In this document: piece after piece, positions 282 to 54,028 of the stretch | How positions within the stretch are numbered: the stretch's first letter is position 1 | Layout of the letters: every line of letters begins with the position of its first letter | Origin: a virus | Virus record (IMG/VR): IMGVR_UViG_3300036852_000023 | Location: 1-54,181 of that record | Length of the DNA stretch: 54,181 bases | Strand: one strand, 5' to 3' | The notes under the pieces: generated by a model | Seen by the model: only the letters and a program-made list of their open reading frames with translations | What the model was told of the DNA's origin: nothing | Databases searched by the model: none | Program-made: the position numbers and the translations under genes

Positions 282-447
282 TAATCAAACATTGGGCGAG
301 TGGCTGAAAGAGCTAATGGATAATCCGCCAGCCCCAAATGAGTTTCTGATTGAGCGATTCCGCGAATATCAGTCCAGGAAGATGGAAGACAAAGGTTCCG
401 CGTCAATCTTTGAATTGGGGATTAATCATGTCGCTGAAGGTGAATGA
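268..447 (+). CDS. Small hypothetical protein (59 aa) upstream of portal
   Basis: The frame begins MEQNNNQTLGEWLKEL, overlaps the end of the upstream gene by 14 bases and runs 20 bases into the portal gene in another frame. A purine-rich AAGGGGAAG stretch lies just upstream. The overlaps at both ends are typical of a phage morphogenesis operon and support translation. No family is recognised. It is too short for most gene callers at default settings. Confidence 0.6.
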   Translation: MEQNNNQTLGEWLKELMDNPPAPNEFLIERFREYQSRKMEDKGSASIFELGINHVAEGE

Positions 448-1855
448 GCCAACAGACGCAGTCAAGGCCATGCAGCCAGCCATTGATAAGATGGCGGCGC
501 TTGTCGGCGGCACAGAGGCTATGCGTGCTGCTGGGCGTAAATACCTGCCACAATTCCCGCTTGAAGCTGACGAAGATTACGCTTTCCGTCTGCAAACCTC
601 CACGTTATACAACGCGACTGGCTGGACGATTGGCAATTTGGCGGGGAAGCCTTTTAGCGAGGCCGTGACCGTCACTGATGCCAATGAGGCTATAGATGGG
701 TGGCTAGAGAATATAGACCTATGCGGCCATGACATTACCAACTTTGCGCATCTGCTATTTTTTAGCGGACTGAGCGATGGATTAACGCATGTCATGATTG
801 ATTTCCAAGTCACGCTCGATACTGATGGCAATCCAATTTACCGAACCCGGGCACAAGAGAAAGAGGCGGGTTTGCGGCCTTATGCAGTGCATATCAAGCA
901 ATCGCAAATTCTTGGATGGATCACCGAAAATCAGAATGGCTATGAAAAGCTGGTTCAACTTCGGTTCATGGAATGCGAATACGATCAAGATGGCGACTGG
1001 GGCGTGAAAGAAGTGCCACAAGTCCGCGTGCTGTTACCTGGTGCATGGCAGAAGTGGCGCAAGAAGCAAGACGGCGATGAAACTTGGTATTTGTATGAGG
1101 AGGGGCCGACATCGCTGGATTTCATCCCATTCGTGACTTATTACACGCGTCGAACCGGCTTCATGACCGCTATGCCGCCGTTAGAAGACCTGGCTGACCT
1201 GAATATCAAGCACTGGCAGTCACAGAGCGATCAAGACAGCCTGCTGCATACTGCCCGCGTGCCTATCCTGGCGCGCATTGGATTGCAGGATGACCCGGAG
1301 ACTCAAGCCAAGATCGGCAAGAGCATCCATGACCTGCCGGCAGGCGCAGATATGAAGTATGTAGAGCATTCCGGCGCTGCAATCGGCTCTGGCCGCGATT
1401 CGCTGCAAGACCTCAAAGAAGATATGCGCTCAATGGGCGCTGAACTGCTCGTACTCCAGCCTGGCGACCGATCAGCCACTGGCGAGGCGCTTGATTCGGC
1501 CAAATCACAAAGTCAGCTTCAGCAAATGGCAACTAACCTAGGCGATTTTCTGGATGAAGTGCTAGACATCATGGCCCGTTGGGCGAATGTCCAGCCAGGT
1601 GCGCATGCGAAGGTATTCAACAATTTCACGGCGGTATTGGCGAATGAATCGAACGTGCTGCAAATCACTCAGGCCATTATTGCCATGAAATCGGCAGGGT
1701 TGCTGGATGACAAATCCGCGTTTGAGGAAATGCAGCGATATGGAATCATAAATGCTGATGTGAAATGGGAAGATGTCCAGGCGCTGATTGATATTCAGCC
1801 TCCGCTATTGATGCAGCAATCCAAGTCACCAGTACAGACGGATCCGCAGCAATGA
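428..1855 (+). CDS. Portal protein (DUF4055-like)
   Basis: This 475-residue protein would form the dodecameric ring at the packaging vertex through which DNA enters and leaves the head. It is placed between the terminase and the minor head protein, the standard portal position, and its length and N-terminal pattern (a YLPQFPLE segment near residue 40, then an aromatic and Asp-rich stretch) resemble the DUF4055 portal-like family. The start at 428 follows a GGGG stretch and gives MSLKVNEP. An upstream ATG in the same frame at 350 would only add residues that overlap the 59-residue gene. The stop overlaps the next start as ATGA. The family assignment is from memory of the pattern, while the role also rests on gene order. 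Confidence 0.82.
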   Translation: MSLKVNEPTDAVKAMQPAIDKMAALVGGTEAMRAAGRKYLPQFPLEADEDYAFRLQTSTLYNATGWTIGNLAGKPFSEAVTVTDANEAIDGWLENIDLCGHDITNFAHLLFFSGLSDGLTHVMIDFQVTLDTDGNPIYRTRAQEKEAGLRPYAVHIKQSQILGWITENQNGYEKLVQLRFMECEYDQDGDWGVKEVPQVRVLLPGAWQKWRKKQDGDETWYLYEEGPTSLDFIPFVTYYTRRTGFMTAMPPLEDLADLNIKHWQSQSDQDSLLHTARVPILARIGLQDDPETQAKIGKSIHDLPAGADMKYVEHSGAAIGSGRDSLQDLKEDMRSMGAELLVLQPGDRSATGEALDSAKSQSQLQQMATNLGDFLDEVLDIMARWANVQPGAHAKVFNNFTAVLANESNVLQITQAIIAMKSAGLLDDKSAFEEMQRYGIINADVKWEDVQALIDIQPPLLMQQSKSPVQTDPQQ

Positions 1856-5505: not shown

Positions 5506-6299
5506 TGCCTATCGGCGTTAGTGGGCGGCTGCGTGAGTATTTATTCGAGGTAGGCCTAGGCAATGTAGAAGGCCATAGACGATTCGCTGGCCTTGGGAAT
5601 AATACTGACGTAGACCAAGCCACCGTTCCCGAGCATGCATGGCCTGGCGGTGGATTATATCCGTGGATTGGCGCGGCTGGTGTATCGCTTGAAGTAGTAT
5701 CGGCCAGCGCTCAAGATTCTGCGACTGGCACGGGCATTTCAACTATATTGCTCACTACACTGGATATTGATTATGTTGAAACAACGCACACCATCCAACT
5801 AACTGGCACTACGGCGGTAGCAGTACCTGGCGGGCCATGGCTCCGTATTAATGATGGACGCGGGCTTACAAAAGGCTCTGGCGCAGCTGCAACGCGTGTA
5901 ACGAATGCGGGTGATATTACGATACGCGATTCTGGAGGCGGAACGGCTAGAGCGATTTTGCCAGCAGGTCGTAATTTTCTTCGGCAAGCGATTTACACAA
6001 TACCGGCTGGATATACCGGCGAAGTGCTGAGCATGTACATCGGCTTTAACCGGGGAACCGGCGTTGGGGCAACTCGATATTTAACTGTATCAACGTATTC
6101 TCAAAACCCATCAGGCGTATATTTGCTGCCCCTAGATCTGAGTTGTGATGGTGAATCATATCGGCATGATGGATTGCCAGGTATTTTCCTTCCGCAGAAA
6201 ACAGATTTTGCAATGGAAATCGTTGCGGTAAGTGCAGACAATTCAGACGTTACCTGTGCATTTTTGGGCGTGATGAAACAAAACTCAATAGCAATCTAA
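5505..6299 (+). CDS. Putative virion structural protein (264 aa)
   Basis: This beta-rich protein has high Gly, Thr, Val and Ile content and little charge. Residues about 60-110 hold a repeated hydrophobic and Thr pattern, and the C-terminal half resembles a jelly-roll-like layout. It is coupled to the upstream peptide by TAATG. It lies between coat and neck genes, so it may decorate the head or form a head fibre base. I do not recognise the family. The structural class is inferred from composition and context. Confidence 0.65.
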   Translation: MPIGVSGRLREYLFEVGLGNVEGHRRFAGLGNNTDVDQATVPEHAWPGGGLYPWIGAAGVSLEVVSASAQDSATGTGISTILLTTLDIDYVETTHTIQLTGTTAVAVPGGPWLRINDGRGLTKGSGAAATRVTNAGDITIRDSGGGTARAILPAGRNFLRQAIYTIPAGYTGEVLSMYIGFNRGTGVGATRYLTVSTYSQNPSGVYLLPLDLSCDGESYRHDGLPGIFLPQKTDFAMEIVAVSADNSDVTCAFLGVMKQNSIAI

Positions 6300-13614: not shown

Positions 13615-16600
13615 GTGCCGGATATTGGCAGCCTAACGATCACACTTGATGCCTCTCAGGCTAACACAGCGGCTGCCGATCTTGAAAAATTAACTCAAGC
13701 TGGCGAAAAGGCAGAGAATTCTGCGCAAGGCTTAGGCCAGACCTATAGCAAGATTGGCGAGAGCATGACTGTTGCCTCTACAGGCGCATCTGCTCTTGCC
13801 AATGCCTACAAACGGTCGTCGGATCAGTCCGTTCAGCTTAATGAGTCTGGAAAGGCCTTCGTTGCCAGCCTAGATGCGCAAGTCGCCGCATTCCAAAAGC
13901 AAATCGCAATCTTCGGCCAAGCCGCTGAGGCATCACTTCGTTATGATGCTGCCCTTGGTGGCATTTCTTCGTCTGTTGAGCCGACCATCCAAAAGATTGG
14001 GCAGTTACGCGCAGCGCATGAGCAATTAGCCGCTGAGCAGGCTAAGAATCAAGCCGCCAGAGCATTTCTTGATGGGTTGCGCGAAGAAATCGTCCTCGCC
14101 AATAAGGATGAAGAAGCAATCATCCGCTATAAGGCGGAAAAGCTCGGCATTGGCGATACGATTGAACCGTATATCACGCGACTCAACCAGCAGAAAGAGG
14201 CGCAGAATGCAGCCGCTGAAGCTGCATTAAAAGAGACTTTGGCCCAGCGGCAACTCGCACAAGCCAAGCAGGCTAACGAATCAACCATCGCTGGGCTGCG
14301 CGAACGCATCGACATATTTGGTAAGTCTGACGAAGACATTATCCGCTACAAGGCCGCATTGGCTGGCATCGGTAATGAAGTTGAACCGCTTGTTCAGCAA
14401 TTGGAGCGGCTCAAGGCTGAGCAATTGGCAGCTAGTCAGGCGGCGCAGCAAGAGGCTAATTCACAGCGCAAGGCGGCAGAAGCTAAGCAGTCTGCGGCTG
14501 CCAGTGGCGAGGCATTCCTAAATAGCCTGCGCCAACAAGTTGAATTGTCGAAACTGGCCGATAAAAGCCCAACTGGCATTCTTCGATACCAAGCGGCCAT
14601 TGCTGGAGTTTCAAAAGAATCTGAATCTTATATACGCGAGCTAGAAAAAACAGCTAATGCTCAAGGGCGTGTAGGAATTTCTGCCGGTCAGACTCGCGTC
14701 GCATTTCAGCAACTTGGGTTTCAGGTTACTGATATTTTCACTAGCCTGGCAGGTGGACAAAATCCGCTTCTGGTATTCATTCAGCAAGGCGGCCAGATCA
14801 AAGACTCTTTCGGTGGCGCTGGTGCTGCGCTAAAGGCTATCGGCTCGCTTATCACGCCTGTACGGGTGGCAATGCTGGCGCTGGGTGCTGCAGCTGGTGT
14901 AGTGGCGCTAGGATTTGCGGAAAGTATTGGCCAAGCTAAAGAATTCGCCAAGGCTATTGCGCTTAGTGGCAATGCTGCTGGTGTTACAGCAGATCAACTT
15001 ACAGTAATGGCTTCTGCGCTGGCCGCAGCGCGTGGGGAAAATAAATCCGCTACTGAAGCCTTGTCTGCATTCGTGAAGACTGGCGATGTTGCATCCAACA
15101 GTTTGCAAGAATTCTCGCAAATCGCCATTGATTCCCAGCGGGTTCTTGGCATCAGCATTGAAGATACAGTCAAAAAGTTCAGTGAACTAGCCAAAGAACC
15201 TTTCCAAGCATCGCTCAAAATCGCAGAAGCAACAGGGAAGATAACTGCCCAGGAATTGCTGCTTATCAAGGCGCTTGAAGATCAAGGGCGTAAGCAAGAA
15301 GCCGCTACTGCTGCGCAGCAAGCATGGGCGCGTGCTTCTCAAGAATCTATAGCTAGTGTACTTGAAAATCAAAATGACCTAGTTAAAGGCTGGGATGCGG
15401 TAACGGGTGCCATCGGGCGCATGATTGACCGCATGAAAGGCATTGGACAAGTAACTACTGCCCAACAGCAGATTGAAGGTCTTAATCAAGCGATTGAAGC
15501 GGCTAGGGCAGGTGCCGGTAATGTTGCATTGGGCGGGGCTTTGGCTGGTGGCGAACTTAAAGAACTTGAGCGCAAGCGTGATGATTTGCTTGAGTTGCAA
15601 CGCATCCAAGGACGCCAATCTCAAGTAGATGCTGAAAATACCAGATCGAATGAAAGATTCGCTCAGGCTCTACGAGAGAGCAATTCCATCATTGAAGCCG
15701 CTAAATCCAAGACACAGCGTTTCAATGAAGAACTAGCAAAGTATCGAGAGAATTTAGCTGTTCGTCGTTCTAAAACGGATGTTTCTGTCGCACAGCAGGC
15801 TAAAGAAGAGGCCGCATTACGCGAGCAAATCTTCGGCAATGAGAAGAAAACATCAGACAATTCTCGAAAACTACGCAGCGTTGATCTAGCAGACATCAAG
15901 AGAACCTATCAAGAGCGGATAGATACTGTTCGCAATGGTGAACAGGTTGTTGATGCTTTGCGCAATGCTGGCCTAATTGGCGAAAAGGAATATTTCGAGC
16001 TAAGAAAAACATCAATCCGTGAGATTGCAAATCTTCAAGTTCAAGAATTGAACGCTGAAAACGCGCGGCTACGACTTGGCGCGAATAACACTGCGCAACG
16101 TCTGGAAAACCAGAAGCAGATCACGGATAACGAGCGCCGGATTGCCAGCATAACTGCGGCTGCTGATTCTAATCTTAAGGTGTTGGAAATACAGAAAGGC
16201 CAACGTCTGCGCGAAATTAAACGCGCTTATGATGAATTGAGCATTTCTGCCAGTGAATATATTGATACGCTGCGACGCCAAGCGCAACAAGAGGCAGAAG
16301 GTGTTGGACGCGGTAATAAATTCCGTGAAGAAGCCTCGCAGCGTGCAGCCATTAGAGAAAAAGAAATACGTGATCTTAGGGAGCTTGAAAGCTTCCGACG
16401 TCAGAACGCTATAGAAGTCCGCAATGATGATACTGGCGAGACAGTAACTATTCTGACGCCTGAATTACAGGCTCAATATGATGAGAGGCTTCGTATCATC
16501 AAAGAAGGGTCTGCCGCTGAATTAGCTATTTTTGAACAAACTTTAGCGCAAAAAGAAATCGATCAGGCTGATTGGGTTAATGGTGCGAAAGAAGCATTCG

Positions 16601-30604: not shown

Positions 30605-31537
30605 TTAATCCTCCTTAGCGTCAATTATGCTCGAAAACAGTTCATGCGCGCTGGCTTGCAATATTTTTACAGTAGGTTTCAGTGCGTCCCCTACTGCGTC
30701 CCATGCAGTGGCCCGTGCAGCGGCCCATGCTGCGGCCCGTGCAGCGGCCCATGCAACGTCCCATGTTGCGTCCCATGCTGCGTCCCCTACTGCGTCCCAT
30801 GCTGCGGCCCGTGCAGCGGCCCGTGCAGCGGCCCATGCTGCGTCCCATGCTGCGTCCCGTGCTGCGTCACATGCTGCGGCCCGTGCAGCGGCCCATGCAG
30901 CGTCCCATGCTGCGTCCCGTGCATCGTCCCGTGCATCGTCCCCTACTGCGTCCCCTACTGCGTCCCATGCAGTGGCCCGTGCAGCGGCCCATGCTGCGGC
31001 CCGTGCAGCGGCCCATGCAGCGTCCCATGTTGCGTCCCATGCTGCGTCCCCTACTGCGTCCCATGCTGCGTCCCGTGCATCGTCCCGTGCTGCGTCCCAT
31101 GCTGCGTCCCGTGCTGCGTTAATCTTTGGTAGCGCAATGTTCAATTCATCTTGGCAGGTAATGGCTGGCATCTGAATCAAGATATCTGCATGGATTTTCA
31201 AAGAAGGGGTCAATGCCAGCCATGCTGCGCAATGAACGCGCACCAGCCAGTCAAACGCCATCCAAGAACGTTTTTCGGAGAGTGCTTTTGATCCTGCAGT
31301 GCCTGGGAGCCGGGTGATGTATTGCTTGAGTTGTGCCCGTTCTTCGTTGGAACGCATGCCATCGTTCCAAGCGCGGCCAAATGCTGCCAGGACCGGGTCA
31401 ACGCATTCCGGCGAATCTCCAAACGGTTCATTGGCGAATAGGCTTACTACTTCCAGCAGGCAGTGGCCTTGTTTTGGTGAAGTATGCGAACCGCTAGCTA
31501 GTTCAATATCGTCCAGATTAGCTAAATTAATTTCCAT
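30605..31537 (-). CDS. Ala/Trp/Asp repeat protein encoded by a 12-bp minisatellite (310 aa)
   Basis: The first 140 residues are unique and helical, with LANLDDIELASGSHTSPKQG and a WNDGMRSNEERAQLKQYITR segment. Residues about 145-285 consist of tetrapeptides of the type DAAW, DAAR, AAAR and DAVG, with few interruptions. The periodicity of four gives a surface stripe on an alpha-helix. A unique tail (LKPTVKILQASAHELFSSII) follows. Similar Ala-rich repeat proteins occur sporadically in phages, and their role is not known to me. It has its own promoter and a strong AAGGAG site. Repeat number is likely to vary between isolates. Confidence 0.8.
   Translation of the reverse strand: MEINLANLDDIELASGSHTSPKQGHCLLEVVSLFANEPFGDSPECVDPVLAAFGRAWNDGMRSNEERAQLKQYITRLPGTAGSKALSEKRSWMAFDWLVRVHCAAWLALTPSLKIHADILIQMPAITCQDELNIALPKINAARDAAWDAARDDARDAAWDAVGDAAWDATWDAAWAAARAAAWAAARATAWDAVGDAVGDDARDDARDAAWDAAWAAARAAACDAARDAAWDAAWAAARAAARAAAWDAVGDAAWDATWDVAWAAARAAAWAAARATAWDAVGDALKPTVKILQASAHELFSSIIDAKED
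30676..31117. repeat. 12-bp tandem repeat array (coding minisatellite)
   Basis: About 37 imperfect copies of a 12-base unit, on + of the type GCGTCCCATGCT, keep one reading frame on the - strand. A higher-order duplication is visible: a block of more than 100 bases starting CCCCTACTGCG at 30688 recurs almost unchanged at 30952, an offset of 264 bases (22 units). Because the period is a multiple of three, several other frames are also open and are artefacts. Slippage or recombination would change protein length without breaking the frame. Confidence 0.9.
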
Positions 31538-41508: not shown

Positions 41509-42282
41509 ATGAGCTTTCAAGCATTGGCTTGGGCTGTAGAACAGAAATGCTCATCATCGGGACAAAAATTGGTCCTGCTGATGTTGGCTAACTATTGTAA
41601 CTCGCATAGCGGGCAATGTAATCCTTCCCATCAGCGATTGGCAGAAGAATGTTGTATGGGCATTTCTACTCTAAAAAATCATCTGTCAGCATTGTCAGAT
41701 ATGGGTTTGATTCGCATTGACCGCGTTAAACAGAATGGCGTAAATCTGCCAAATCAGTATTGGTTAAATATTGACCTAGTAGGTCAGAATCTGGCTGAGG
41801 TAGGTCAGAATCTGGCTGAGGGTGGGTCAGAATCTGACGGAGGGGTAGGTCAGAATCTGGCTACAAACCTAGAACTTAAACCAGGAATAGAACCTATATC
41901 TTGTGGAAATCCCTTGTCACCGTCTGACGACGATGACTTGCCGCAGGATGGGAAGCCATCGCAATCAGCCCCATATCGTGATCTGATGACCGTCTACAAC
42001 GAAGTTCTTGGAGAACAATTGCCAAAGGCACTTACCATGAACGCCAGTCGTAAACAGGCACTTAAAGCTCGTTGGCGAGAAATGATCGGAAGCGTGGGGC
42101 CAGGAGGGGAGATTCGCTATGAAGATCGGGAGAGTGGGATAAATTGGTGGAGACGGTTTTTCAAGAAGGTCATGTACAACCCACATTGGATGGGGGCTAA
42201 TGATCGCGGTTGGCGCGCAGATTTTGACTGGATCATAAAGCCAAACAATTTCACGAAAATTCTGGAATATCGGAAAGGCTGA
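41509..42282 (+). CDS. Replication initiator, O-like (winged helix N-terminus)
   Basis: This 257-residue protein has an N-terminal winged-helix domain (QKLVLLMLANYCNSHSGQCN, then HQRLAEECCMGISTLKNHLS and a MGLIRIDR wing) like HTH_36 initiators. The middle is a repeated VGQNLAEV/VGQNLAEG linker encoded by iterons, and the C-terminus has RDLMTVYNEVLGEQLPKAL and INWWRRFFKKV, seen in helicase-loader-linked proteins. It is followed directly by DnaB, giving an O-then-helicase order. It probably binds its own coding iterons and recruits DnaB. Confidence 0.82.
   Translation: MSFQALAWAVEQKCSSSGQKLVLLMLANYCNSHSGQCNPSHQRLAEECCMGISTLKNHLSALSDMGLIRIDRVKQNGVNLPNQYWLNIDLVGQNLAEVGQNLAEGGSESDGGVGQNLATNLELKPGIEPISCGNPLSPSDDDDLPQDGKPSQSAPYRDLMTVYNEVLGEQLPKALTMNASRKQALKARWREMIGSVGPGGEIRYEDRESGINWWRRFFKKVMYNPHWMGANDRGWRADFDWIIKPNNFTKILEYRKG
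41779..41862 (+). other. Putative replication origin: four iterons inside the initiator gene
   Basis: Four direct copies of an 18-base element GTAGGTCAGAATCTGGCT lie at 41779-41796, 41800-41817, 41822-41839 (diverged: GTGGGTCAGAATCTGACG) and 41845-41862. Centres are 21-23 bases apart, about two helical turns, which places all copies on one face. The arrangement matches lambda, where ori iterons sit inside gene O. The sequence after the last copy is A-rich (ACAAACCTAGAACTTAAACC). Simple repeated-linker coding is the alternative. Confidence 0.65.
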
Positions 42283-42284
42283 CT

Positions 42285-43649
42285 ATGCTTGACGATCTAC
42301 CGTTGCTAGCCAACATTGAGGCGGAACAGAACGTGCTCGGCGCTTTGCTCATGGAAGATGCAGCATGGGATGCTATTGCTGAGCTTATCTGCGAAAGTGA
42401 CTTCTACCGTATGGAGCATGCTGTAATTTTCCGGCATGTTGCCAAACTCGTAAAAGCGGGGCAGAGAATTGATGTGGTTTCCGTTTCCAACAGCCTTGAC
42501 GAGTCGGGCGTGAATGACCAAGTCGGCGGCATTGCCTACCTAGCAACAATGCAGCAGAACACGCCATCCGCCCGCAATATCCGGCGCTATGCAGAAATTG
42601 TGCTAGAGCGAAGCCGTGAGCGTAGGTTATTGCTGTCTAGTGACAAGATTTCTAAATTAGCTATGGAGCGCGAGGGGAGAACCTTGCTAGACCGCCTAGG
42701 AGAGGCACAGAAGCTACTAGAATCAATTGGGGCGACGGAAACGAGCCAGCGTGAAATGAGCGCAGCAGAAGCCATGCATGCATGCGTAAGAGCTATTCAG
42801 GAGCGCATTGACCGGCCAGACGGCGTGCTTGGTGGGTTGCCTACCGGGTTAAGTGCTCTTGATGAACAATTGGATGGGTTGCGGGACGGTGAACTAATTG
42901 TAGTCGGTGGACGACCATCCATGGGTAAGAGCTGCATTGGCGAAATGATTTCCCGTGTCAATGCCATGCAAGGGCGGTCAGTTAGATTGCAGTCCTATGA
43001 AATGCCAGCTCCCGACATCATGGCTAGATCATCAGCCGCAAGCATGGGTATTAAACTTGAAAATATCCGCAAAGCTAGAATGACAATGGAGGAATACGAG
43101 TTATTCGCCGCATTTGTCAGTCAAGCGCATGAATGGAAATTATTTATTGATGATGAGCCAGCTAGGATTGACAAAATCATGAGTCGCGCCAGGGTTCATA
43201 AGCGGATGAGGGGACTAGATTTGCTGGTTATTGACCATCTTCATTTGATCCCGCGACCTGGTCGGAATGAAGTTCAGGAGCTAGGCGATATTACCGCGCA
43301 GCTAAAGAGACTGGCTACCGAACTCCAAATCCCCGTTGTGCTCCTTGCGCAATTGAATCGAGGTCCAACACAGGGGGCGATGCGTGCCCCGACTTTAACG
43401 GACCTGCGCGGGTCTGGTGCGATTGAGCAAGATGCAGATGTAGTGCTTTTCCCTCATCGGGCCGGATATTACGATGAAAATGTTCCACCTGGCGAGGCAG
43501 AGATTATTATTGCAAAGCATCGCAATGGGCCGGTTGGAGTTGTTGGAGTTGGCTGGCGAGGGGATTTCGTGAGGTTTCAAAACAAGATTCCGACAGATTG
43601 GAACCCACCAAAACGCCATGTTGCAAATCAATGGGATGAGGACTTATGA
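42285..43649 (+). CDS. dnaB: Replicative DNA helicase, DnaB-like
   Basis: This 454-residue protein has an N-terminal DnaB domain (EQNVLGALLMEDAAWDAI, DVVSVSNSLDESG) and a RecA-like C-terminal domain with Walker A GGRPSMGKS near residue 207, Walker B LLVIDHLHL near 318 and the sensor region LAQLNRGP near 350. It would form the hexameric fork helicase and is loaded with the upstream initiator. The size and motif order are complete, so the phage seems independent of the host helicase for fork opening. Confidence 0.95.
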   Translation: MLDDLPLLANIEAEQNVLGALLMEDAAWDAIAELICESDFYRMEHAVIFRHVAKLVKAGQRIDVVSVSNSLDESGVNDQVGGIAYLATMQQNTPSARNIRRYAEIVLERSRERRLLLSSDKISKLAMEREGRTLLDRLGEAQKLLESIGATETSQREMSAAEAMHACVRAIQERIDRPDGVLGGLPTGLSALDEQLDGLRDGELIVVGGRPSMGKSCIGEMISRVNAMQGRSVRLQSYEMPAPDIMARSSAASMGIKLENIRKARMTMEEYELFAAFVSQAHEWKLFIDDEPARIDKIMSRARVHKRMRGLDLLVIDHLHLIPRPGRNEVQELGDITAQLKRLATELQIPVVLLAQLNRGPTQGAMRAPTLTDLRGSGAIEQDADVVLFPHRAGYYDENVPPGEAEIIIAKHRNGPVGVVGVGWRGDFVRFQNKIPTDWNPPKRHVANQWDEDL

Positions 43650-48945: not shown

Positions 48946-49103
48946 GCGACGATTTCAAGAGCGGAATTTACTGCGGCGCAAATGGCGCATTGGCGATAAT
49001 GAACATTGTTTATGGGGCTATACATAATTCCACATTCAACATTGTTTTAGCTATCGCATGCGGCGGTGTGGCCTATATGAACTGGCGCAAGGCTAGAGCT
49101 TGA
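48942..49103 (+). CDS. Small membrane protein (53 aa)
   Basis: The ATG overlaps the previous stop, and a stretch NIVYGAIHNSTFNIVLAIAC is hydrophobic, with a basic end (NWRKARA). It would span the membrane once or twice. This short gene is not obvious in a standard scan. It is the last gene before the 400-bp gene-free region. Confidence 0.6.
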   Translation: MSDDFKSGIYCGANGALAIMNIVYGAIHNSTFNIVLAIACGGVAYMNWRKARA

Positions 49104-49128
49104 TACTGTGCTGAAGTGGTGGGATAAT
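49100..49128 (+). promoter_or_regulatory. Near-consensus promoter at the gene-free region
   Basis: TTGATA (49100-49105), exactly 17 bases and GATAAT (49123-49128) make a strong sigma-70 promoter, overlapping the stop of the upstream membrane-protein gene. The predicted start is near 49135. No ATG with a credible gene follows for 370 bases, so the promoter reads into a noncoding region. Confidence 0.75.
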
Positions 49129-49134
49129 GGCTTC

Positions 49135-49460
49135 ACATTCTGCGTGGAAACAGAATAGAGAGATGGGTTAAGTAGCGTATCTGCCCCAGAAATGGGGTTT
49201 CCACCAGATGCGCGACTTAACCCATTTTTCGTTTCCATCGCGCAACGTGGCGTCAAGGTGCCCACTGGGAATGCAAAAAGCTGAGCGATACCCCACCAAG
49301 GTGAGCGGGCAGTGGTAAGGCGCTAATTGCTAGCGACCCGGTGCAAATCCGTAATAATCCACCGACTGGCAGTACCGACAAGTCGAGGGCTTACGGTAAT
49401 CAATCCGTAGCATGTCGGTCCCCGTAATGGGTGTGAACCCTGTCCAATTCTCTATTTATT
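49135..49460 (+). ncRNA. Candidate structured non-coding RNA
   Basis: No convincing gene lies between 49104 and 49505 on either strand. From the promoter the RNA can fold a long hairpin: ATGGGTTAAGT (49163-49173) with ACTTAACCCAT (49215-49225), then GCGTATCTG with CAGATGCGC, then CCCC with GGGG, followed by TTTTT, so it may also end there. GTGGAAAC (49144-49151) fits GTTTCCAC (49197-49204) in its bulge, or GTTTCCAT (49231-49238). A second domain holds CGCTA/TAGCG, CGG-TGCAAAT-CCG (49339-49351) with a T-loop look, and a pseudoknot: CGACT (49363-49367) with AGTCG (49381-49385) interleaved with ACCGACA (49374-49380) and TGTCGGT (49413-49419), enclosing TACGG/CCGTA. Its class is unknown to me. 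Confidence 0.62.
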
Positions 49461-49505
49461 AATGGGGAAGGGGGCAGTCTTGTGAACTGTACTAGGGTTA
49501 ACCTT

Positions 49506-52184: not shown

Positions 52185-52721
52185 ATGGCTCGTCCCAGCA
52201 AAATAACCGACGCGCAATTAGCTGAAATTTGGTCAAGGTATTTGGCAGGGGAACTATTGTCCAAATTGGCTAAAGAGTTCGGCATGAGTGCGTCCTCATT
52301 GTCTGAGCGATTGAAGGGCCGGAAAGATGGACTGCACGAAATCGCAAATGAGCTGGCGGCTGCCGAAAAGAAGTTCGAGCAATTGCCAGTCGTGCAGCAA
52401 AAGGCCGTGCGCAATCTAACTGACGATCTGAAGGATATTTCGTTTCACTTAGCTGGCGCTGCCAAATATGGGGCCATGAGTGCCCATAGATTGGCCACAA
52501 TCGCTCAAGGCCAAGCTGAGCGCGTGAGTGATGTAGATCCATTAGGCGAATCGGCGCAAGAGCTTCAGGCGGTCGCAGTGCTCACGGAAACGGCCAACAA
52601 AGCCGCCAAGACTGGCATCGATCTAATCCGCGCCGTCAATCAAGACAAAGACAAGGACAAAGCCCCGCCAGAAGACAAGGCCGACTTTCTGCGACAGATT
52701 GCGGATAAGCTCAACAACTGA
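52185..52721 (+). CDS. Terminase small subunit
   Basis: The start ATG at 52185 gives 178 residues. Residues about 5-50 form a helix-turn-helix (ITDAQLAEIWSRYLAGELLS, then KEFGMSASSLSERLKG), as in DNA-recognising small terminases. A long helical middle for oligomerisation and an acidic, Lys and Asp-rich tail (QDKDKDKAPPEDK) follow. It binds the packaging site and hands DNA to the large subunit. Its stop overlaps the large subunit start. Confidence 0.85.
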   Translation: MARPSKITDAQLAEIWSRYLAGELLSKLAKEFGMSASSLSERLKGRKDGLHEIANELAAAEKKFEQLPVVQQKAVRNLTDDLKDISFHLAGAAKYGAMSAHRLATIAQGQAERVSDVDPLGESAQELQAVAVLTETANKAAKTGIDLIRAVNQDKDKDKAPPEDKADFLRQIADKLNN

Positions 52722-54028
52722 TGAGCCTTCCACTGCCATTACAGCGCGAGCTAGAGCGCTGGTATAAGCTCAAAGACCATCCAGTACAGCGCGCATTGAT
52801 CGATGACGATGTGCGCTTCAAAGTCGTTCCTGCTGGCCGCCGTAGTGGCAAGACTGAGCGGGCCAAGCGATATGTAGCCAAGCAAGCACTCGGCAATTCC
52901 AACGAACGATACTTCATCGCCGCGCCGACATATACCCAGGTAAAAAAGATTTACTGGGCTGATATGAAAAAGCTTTGCCTCTGCAGTATGCAGAGCAAAG
53001 CCCCATCCGAAACCGACCTGATTATCTATCTGGATAACGGCACTGAAATTCACCTGATTGGCCTTGATAAGCCAGAGCGCATTGAGGGCGTACTTTGGAC
53101 GGGTGGCGTGATTGATGAGATTGCCGACATCAAAGCGGATGCATGGGAAGCGAACATCCGGCCAGCGCTAGATACATTCAATCCGCAACGGCCTGATTAT
53201 CTCGCCTGGTGCTGGCTTATTGGCGTGCCGGATGGCCTGAATCACTATTACGACATGGCCGAATACGCCAAAGTCAGCGGTGATCCAGACTGGAAGCTAT
53301 ACCATTGGGAAAGCGCAGACATCCTGCCGCAAAAGGTTATTGAAGCTGCAATGCGCAGCATGTCAAAGCGCCAGTTTAATCAGGAATACCGGGCCAGCTT
53401 TGAGACTGCGACAGGGCGCATATACGAAGATTACAGCGCCAAGAATTACACCAATGAAACCATCCAGCCGCATGAACAATTGCTGTGGTATCACGATTTC
53501 AACTTTACGCCACTCTCCAGCGGAATTGGAGTGAGGCGCGGCACTGATATATTCCTGCTAGAAGAAATCATCCTTACTAGCGCAGTAGCACGGCAAAGCG
53601 CGCTTGAGTTCGTGGATAGATATAAAGACCATCAAAACAAAAACGTGCTCGTCTACGGCGATCCTGCTGGCCGCGCTGGCGAGAAACACGGCCATGCGTC
53701 TGACTATACCGAGATGGAGAAGGTATTGCGCGATCATGGTTGGACTTATACGCGCCGAGTGAAGCCGCAAGCGCCAGCAATCAAAGACCGGCAAAATGCC
53801 GTGCGCTCGAAGATTATGAATGCCGCTGGCGAAGTAAGCCTATTCGTCAATACCAAGAATGCACCATATACGCATAAAGGCTTGGCTACGGTACAATATA
53901 AAGGTGGTTCGACTTTTCTTGAGCAAGAGTCGGACTATCAGCACATTACGACCGCATTCGGTTATTTCATTGACTATGAGTTCCCGGCAATTAACGCCAA
54001 AGCACGTGTTAGCCCATTGAGGATGTGA
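52721..54028 (+). CDS. Terminase large subunit
   Basis: This 435-residue motor has Walker A AGRRSGKTE near residues 38-46 and Walker B GGVIDEIAD near 126-134. Its RNase H-like nuclease domain includes YHDFNFTP near 260 and VYGDPAG near 307. The enzyme cuts concatemers and pumps DNA through the portal. The length is near that of P22-type and other headful enzymes. Together with the absence of a physical terminal repeat signal, headful packaging is a plausible but unproven guess. Confidence 0.93.
   Translation: MSLPLPLQRELERWYKLKDHPVQRALIDDDVRFKVVPAGRRSGKTERAKRYVAKQALGNSNERYFIAAPTYTQVKKIYWADMKKLCLCSMQSKAPSETDLIIYLDNGTEIHLIGLDKPERIEGVLWTGGVIDEIADIKADAWEANIRPALDTFNPQRPDYLAWCWLIGVPDGLNHYYDMAEYAKVSGDPDWKLYHWESADILPQKVIEAAMRSMSKRQFNQEYRASFETATGRIYEDYSAKNYTNETIQPHEQLLWYHDFNFTPLSSGIGVRRGTDIFLLEEIILTSAVARQSALEFVDRYKDHQNKNVLVYGDPAGRAGEKHGHASDYTEMEKVLRDHGWTYTRRVKPQAPAIKDRQNAVRSKIMNAAGEVSLFVNTKNAPYTHKGLATVQYKGGSTFLEQESDYQHITTAFGYFIDYEFPAINAKARVSPLRM

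Follow-up and report, generated by a model that had tools for sequence, protein, structure and literature searches.

The DNA analysed here (the window) is the complete IMG/VR record IMGVR_UViG_3300036852_000023, 54,181 bases in length, and carries at 49100-49487 a member of an intricately folded family of phage non-coding RNAs that had not been catalogued before. Members of this family occur as a single copy per phage record, share a covarying fold, and contain two short internal stretches (Y1 and X1) that copy the 3' end of the same RNA (Y2 and X2) and change together with it. We favour, at a probability of roughly one in three, the reading that the RNA captures its own template DNA in an RNA:DNA hybrid (R-loop) in a manner resembling ColE1 RNA II, possibly as a primer or strand opener.

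A conserved and covarying fold

The locus consists of a sigma70-type promoter, followed by domain 1 and then by domain 2, the latter comprising ~240 nt (Table 1). A 361-nt stretch folds 4.7 standard deviations better than dinucleotide shuffles, with none of 100 shuffles as good. A sequence-only reading of this DNA had described an orphan structured RNA outside known classes, with a near-consensus promoter, a three-stage hairpin of about 63 bases followed by five T, and a T-loop-like hairpin together with an interleaved pseudoknot. All of these elements are present, and the lack of a match in Rfam 15 as well as 61 distinct sequences with strong covariation agree with the proposed novelty.

Unbiased mutual information, computed from 45 sequences (~31 effective), gives its highest ranks to Watson-Crick pairs belonging to the proposed helices. 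In a separate core alignment of 41 homologues, 22 of the 29 domain-2 pairs show changes in both partners; pairing holds in 88.9% of the alignment cells, compared to 23.5-44.5% when the partners are slid, and the covariation score is 0.437 versus 0.146 +/- 0.010 for shuffled alignments. The pseudoknot is interleaved, with the loop of helix Pd (49374-80) pairing to 49413-19 to form helix Pe, all seven pairs of which vary on both sides. The occurrence of U-G pairs, for example seven at Pe columns 87/131, is consistent with the + strand being the RNA. The alignment is approximate in its 5' third; the 5' sub-domain of domain 2 has diverged in the window, and its helices are tentative here.

Domain 1 is likely an intrinsic terminator or attenuator. 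Its 5' leader forms a helix with the bulge on the 3' side of the hairpin, a pairing kept with different letters across about a dozen loci. The domain is absent from a few members (for example L019) and is therefore not essential to domain 2. The sequence-only reading had further noted that the leader GTGGAAAC can pair with two copies of GTTTCCA, at 49197-49204 and 49231-49237, and had suggested a switch between them. Both copies are present, and the first belongs to a pseudoknot that is conserved and covaries in relatives; the switch itself found no support, as only the pairing to the bulge is conserved. The second copy, located past the T-run, could pair with the leader and is specific to the window among the 12 loci checked. 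Of 54 distinct loci, 50% are preceded by a promoter with at least 9 of 12 consensus matches, versus 12% in shuffles.

The stretch 49104-49505, previously described as free of genes, is to be amended with respect to the extent of the RNA: domain 2 extends to ~49487 and covers the GTG codon with which an open reading frame begins at 49482. Because of this overlap, ATG 49506 is the more likely start of the gene downstream of the RNA.

Inner copies of the 3' end

Within each RNA, the 7-9 nt following hairpin Pg (X1) are identical to those at the end of the RNA after hairpin Ph (X2), and differ from one RNA to another. X1 and X2 share at least 7 nt in 86% of own pairs, as opposed to 11% of swapped pairs, and the spacing between their starts is 44-53 nt in nearly all members. 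Among relatives more than 80% identical, 374 of the 435 positions that differ in both X copies carry the same change. A similar relationship holds for Y1 and Y2 in those sequences whose Y is not CAG, with an own match of 4.15 nt against 2.62 nt when swapped. The last ~15 nt of the RNA, Y2-NN-X2, thus have matches, in order, in the two inner pieces Y1 and X1.

The complement of X is not found upstream (own 7.57, swapped 7.65) or within 150 nt downstream (own 5.53, swapped 5.59), and switching between RNA segments in cis therefore fails to explain the identity of the X copies. On the + strand of the window, TGTGAAC occurs only at X1 and X2. The complement of X that the locus does provide is the template DNA strand. 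X varies freely, yet X1 and X2 stay identical, which is suggestive of base pairing and not of a fixed protein site. The 3' end is also G-rich and hybrid-prone: GGGGTAGGGGG is near invariant there while its pairing partner varies between C and U, and when windows are ranked by how far an RNA:DNA hybrid is favoured over the DNA duplex, this end falls in the top 1% at 99% of 67 loci, compared to 3.5% for random positions. The AT content climbs to 63% just beyond X2.

Members of the family

Relatives were collected from IMG/VR, starting with an exact 20-mer of the T-loop region, which retrieved 12 viral contigs, and continuing with three relaxed patterns. The scans gave 75 loci with 61 distinct sequences, including the window, and domain 2 is common to all 75. 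The scans demanded either the T-loop or the Pd motif, and the family is therefore probably wider. All 25 of the 25 phage records considered contain one RNA each. A complete member, L024, was found inside a contig of an Akkermansiaceae metagenome-assembled genome (JAGYIT010000017.1, at ~553.7 kb of 582 kb), where it probably belongs to a prophage. It was the one true member in the genome scan, the other four matches being sul1 RNA picked up by a shared string, and no further members were found in 388 Verrucomicrobiota genomes. Using blastn, no homologue was detected in 50,697 records of cultured phages or in plasmids, with only chance stretches of ~30 nt.

The window has no match in Rfam 15 at gathering level or at E<5, and neither ARAGORN nor Rfam 15 gave a tRNA or tmRNA match in it. 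For 20 relatives, the search at gathering level returned one distant tRNA only, and a loose search (E<1) of seven relatives returned nothing. We note that large published sets of candidate phage RNAs may already contain the motif unnamed.

Genomic context

Of 52 distinct loci, 36 have the next gene in the same orientation as the RNA, and 15 have it convergent. The neighbours are diverse and comprise what we take, by sequence resemblance, to be terminases, replication genes, recT, nucleases, methylases, antirepressors, and PAPS-reductase-like genes. In one clade the usual upstream neighbour is a nuclease-like protein of ~100-117 aa (MSPTQRSLxxLRxxGY...QTTSRxNVAAR), found directly upstream of the RNA in L027, L028, L033, L038, L042, L046 and L048. 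L047, L053, L061, L065 and L073 have near-identical leaders, AACTAGGGGATAGATATG, followed by different genes directly past X2, as in a mosaic cargo site. An obligatory role as a gene leader was tested and is unsupported. The frame of a small upstream protein (a WQP-like peptide) is not conserved, and ribosome hopping from X1 to X2 was rejected, as no reading frame enters X1.

Possible capture of template DNA and alternative explanations

From these features we infer transcription, a rate of termination, RNA:DNA pairing, and priming in the following way. The sigma70 promoter would drive a transcript in which domain 1 folds first, as a pseudoknotted terminator-like hairpin that probably ends most transcripts. 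Those that read through would fold domain 2, with its T-loop junction and pseudoknots, and expose Y1 and X1, which as copies of the RNA 3' end would be complementary to the template DNA strand there. While the polymerase traverses the G-rich 3' end, the transcript could seize the template strand and establish a persistent RNA:DNA hybrid at X2. The most likely use would be opening of the duplex, priming of DNA synthesis with host enzymes only, as for ColE1 RNA II, or both. The host-type promoter, the single copy, the lack of an obligatory partner protein, the G-rich 3' end and the inner copies are the reasons for which template capture is favoured; a single copy, no shared protein found, and both orientations to neighbouring genes fit a DNA element that acts in cis and depends on host factors. 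A narrower version, to which we give somewhat less weight, is a split-guide self-targeting RNA: two separate segments, joined by a pseudoknot, would together recognise the template DNA over the ~15 bp corresponding to the 3' end of the RNA and maintain an R-loop there without a dedicated protein, thereby priming or opening the phage DNA.

Several points weigh against template capture. Four tandem 21-bp iterons (GTAGGTCAGAATCTGGCTGAG) at 41779-41865, within the replication-initiator-like gene 41509-42282, likely constitute a lambda-type iteron origin, and the skew minimum of the window is near these iterons, ~8 kb from the RNA. Iteron-like 12-bp repeats are also found in two related records, G002 (14832-14878, in or beside a homologue of the window's replication gene) and G012 (5790-5836). 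The RNA is therefore not the sole origin candidate. In 5 of 16 records the GC-skew minimum is no more than 2 kb from the RNA, a count confounded by divergent transcription. An antisense promoter like that of RNA I is not enriched (9%, with 16% expected), and a primer would not be expected to begin with a terminator-like hairpin. The hybrid-stability calculation for the 3' end, made with nearest-neighbour values, is partly circular, G-runs being favoured by its parameters. Finally, the comparison of 21 records, in which no protein was common to all, was made by BLAST and would miss fast-evolving proteins.

Two other explanations are each less probable than template capture. The RNA might be a cis leader that modifies RNA polymerase ahead of a long operon, either as an RNA-only processive antiterminator similar to HK022 put or in late control of the Q/pR'/tR' type, with host RNA polymerase as the possible target. 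The window RNA resembles lambda Q and pR' in its location between the replication region and the terminase and structural genes, where a promoter and a terminator-like hairpin precede a structured RNA; the predominance of co-oriented next genes also fits, and in several loci the genes that follow begin with a terminase, replication initiator, primase-helicase or recT. Gene orientation is in favour of this reading at some of the loci only. However, the phage RNA is far larger than these elements, its terminator lies ahead of domain 2 rather than behind it, convergent genes are frequent (in the L002 clade the RNA faces the terminase gene), and X1=X2 is left unexplained. Alternatively, the RNA might act in trans on a host machine or another RNA, as a decoy or regulator with X1 and X2 as a duplicate binding site. 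An ornate, single-copy RNA that depends neither on its gene context nor on a conserved protein fits this reading, but a fixed host target is difficult to reconcile with an X that differs freely even between very close relatives and yet stays the same in X1 and X2; the window also has no other + strand match to X, and the complement of X is not over-represented.

The remaining candidates are improbable to differing degrees. Near-identical RNAs with differing genes directly after X2 would be expected if Y1 and X1 steered a recombinase to Y2-X2 in an RNA-guided DNA rearrangement, yet a functional RNA boundary at X2 explains the mosaicism equally well, and neither a shared recombinase or other protein nor a second site was found. 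In addition, both guide pieces are copies of one and the same strand, a departure from bridge RNAs. A ligand-sensing riboswitch whose T-loop junction resembles that of cobalamin riboswitches or sul1 RNA is less probable again: the T-loop string GGTGCAAATCCG is shared, but the downstream genes are diverse and often convergent, there is no Rfam match, and sul1 RNAs score 13-18 bits with the family model versus 60-118 for members. Least probable is a template for reverse transcription with jump repeats, of the retron, DRT or DGR type. The direct repeats X1 and X2 do bracket a hairpin segment of 44-53 nt, but no reverse transcriptase gene was found in 19 records, while control genomes gave positives.

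Relation to known RNAs

In ColE1, a G-run inside the RNA base-pairs to a template C-run close to the origin. Initiation relies on a host-made non-coding RNA whose persistent hybrid at the origin primes synthesis, with no plasmid initiator (PMC5043065). The phage RNA shares with RNA II a host-type promoter driving a structured non-coding RNA, one copy per replicon, no encoded initiator protein found alongside, and a G-rich inner match to the DNA near the RNA 3' end (X1=X2, Y1=Y2). It differs in size and fold, in having two matched pieces (Y and X) instead of one G-run, and in beginning with a terminator-like hairpin. No RNA I was found, and at least three of these phages also carry iteron arrays. 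The anatomy thus appears partly RNA II-like; because two defining features, RNA I and a sole origin that needs no initiator, were looked for and not found, we do not claim membership.

GOLLD and ROOL are likewise ornate large RNAs from uncultured, often freshwater, phages, but the window RNA is much smaller, has no Rfam match, and differs in sequence and fold. The similarity to cobalamin riboswitches suggested by the sequence-only reading exists as a shared string, and is confined to the T-loop hairpin with GGUGCAAAUCC, which sul1 RNA (RF03058) and cobalamin riboswitches (RF00174) both have; all else differs, and the shared string was the search pattern itself. The 56-nt motif of two hairpins that marks sul1 RNA, located ahead of a SulP gene, was not found, and the RF00174 core gave no match, as no Rfam model did at E up to 5.

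Features of the window

The terminase, portal and DnaB genes (Table 1) identify the source of the window as a tailed phage. A 12-bp unit, TGCGTCCCATGC, occurs in ~36 copies at 30683-31119, inside a minus-strand open reading frame (30605-31537).

Table 1. Coordinates of the RNA elements and of selected genes in the window.
Feature	Position	Strand	Remarks
sigma70-type promoter TTGATA-17-GATAAT, extended -10 TG	49100-49128	+	10/12 consensus matches
Leader strand GTGGAAAC of domain-1 pseudoknot	49144-49151	+	pairs with 49197-49204
Domain 1, three-stage hairpin with 3' bulge GTTTCCACC, then T5	49163-49229	+	stems 49163-73/49215-25, 49175-83/49205-13, 49184-87/49194-97; hairpin 49163-49225, T5 49225-49229
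Domain 2, 5' sub-domain: stem and hairpin, loop pairing to downstream GGG	49247-49311	+	mutual-information pairs in relatives
Junction: stem Pc around hairpin Pa and T-loop hairpin	49312-49362	+	Pc 49312-15/49359-62; Pa 49320-25/49331-37
T-loop hairpin CGG-UGCAAAU-CCG	49339-49351	+	almost invariant
Pseudoknot Pd/Pe with hairpin Pf	49363-49419	+	Pd 49363-67/49381-85; Pe 49374-80/49413-19; Pf 49392-96/49405-09
Y1 GGCAGT	49368-49373	+	inner copy of Y2, in pseudoknot loop
X1 TGTGAAC	49432-49438	+	inner copy of X2, directly after hairpin Pg (49421-23/49429-31)
Hairpin Ph	49440-49477	+	conserved G-rich 3' strand: TGGGGAAGGGGG in window, TGGGGTAGGGGG in most members
RNA 3' end	49473-49487	+	Y2 GGCAGT (49473-49478), CT, X2 TGTGAAC (49481-49487)
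Portal gene	350-1855		
Replication-initiator-like gene	41509-42282		directly ahead of DnaB gene
DnaB helicase gene	42285-43649		
Terminase large subunit gene	52721-54028		

Implications

The family adds an ornate RNA, with covariation data from ~31 effective sequences, from phages of uncultured hosts that culture collections have missed. Covariation by identity between the inner pieces of an RNA and its own end is rare, and is directly testable. If template capture is true, it would represent protein-free targeting of self DNA by a phage and a phage counterpart of ColE1 priming.
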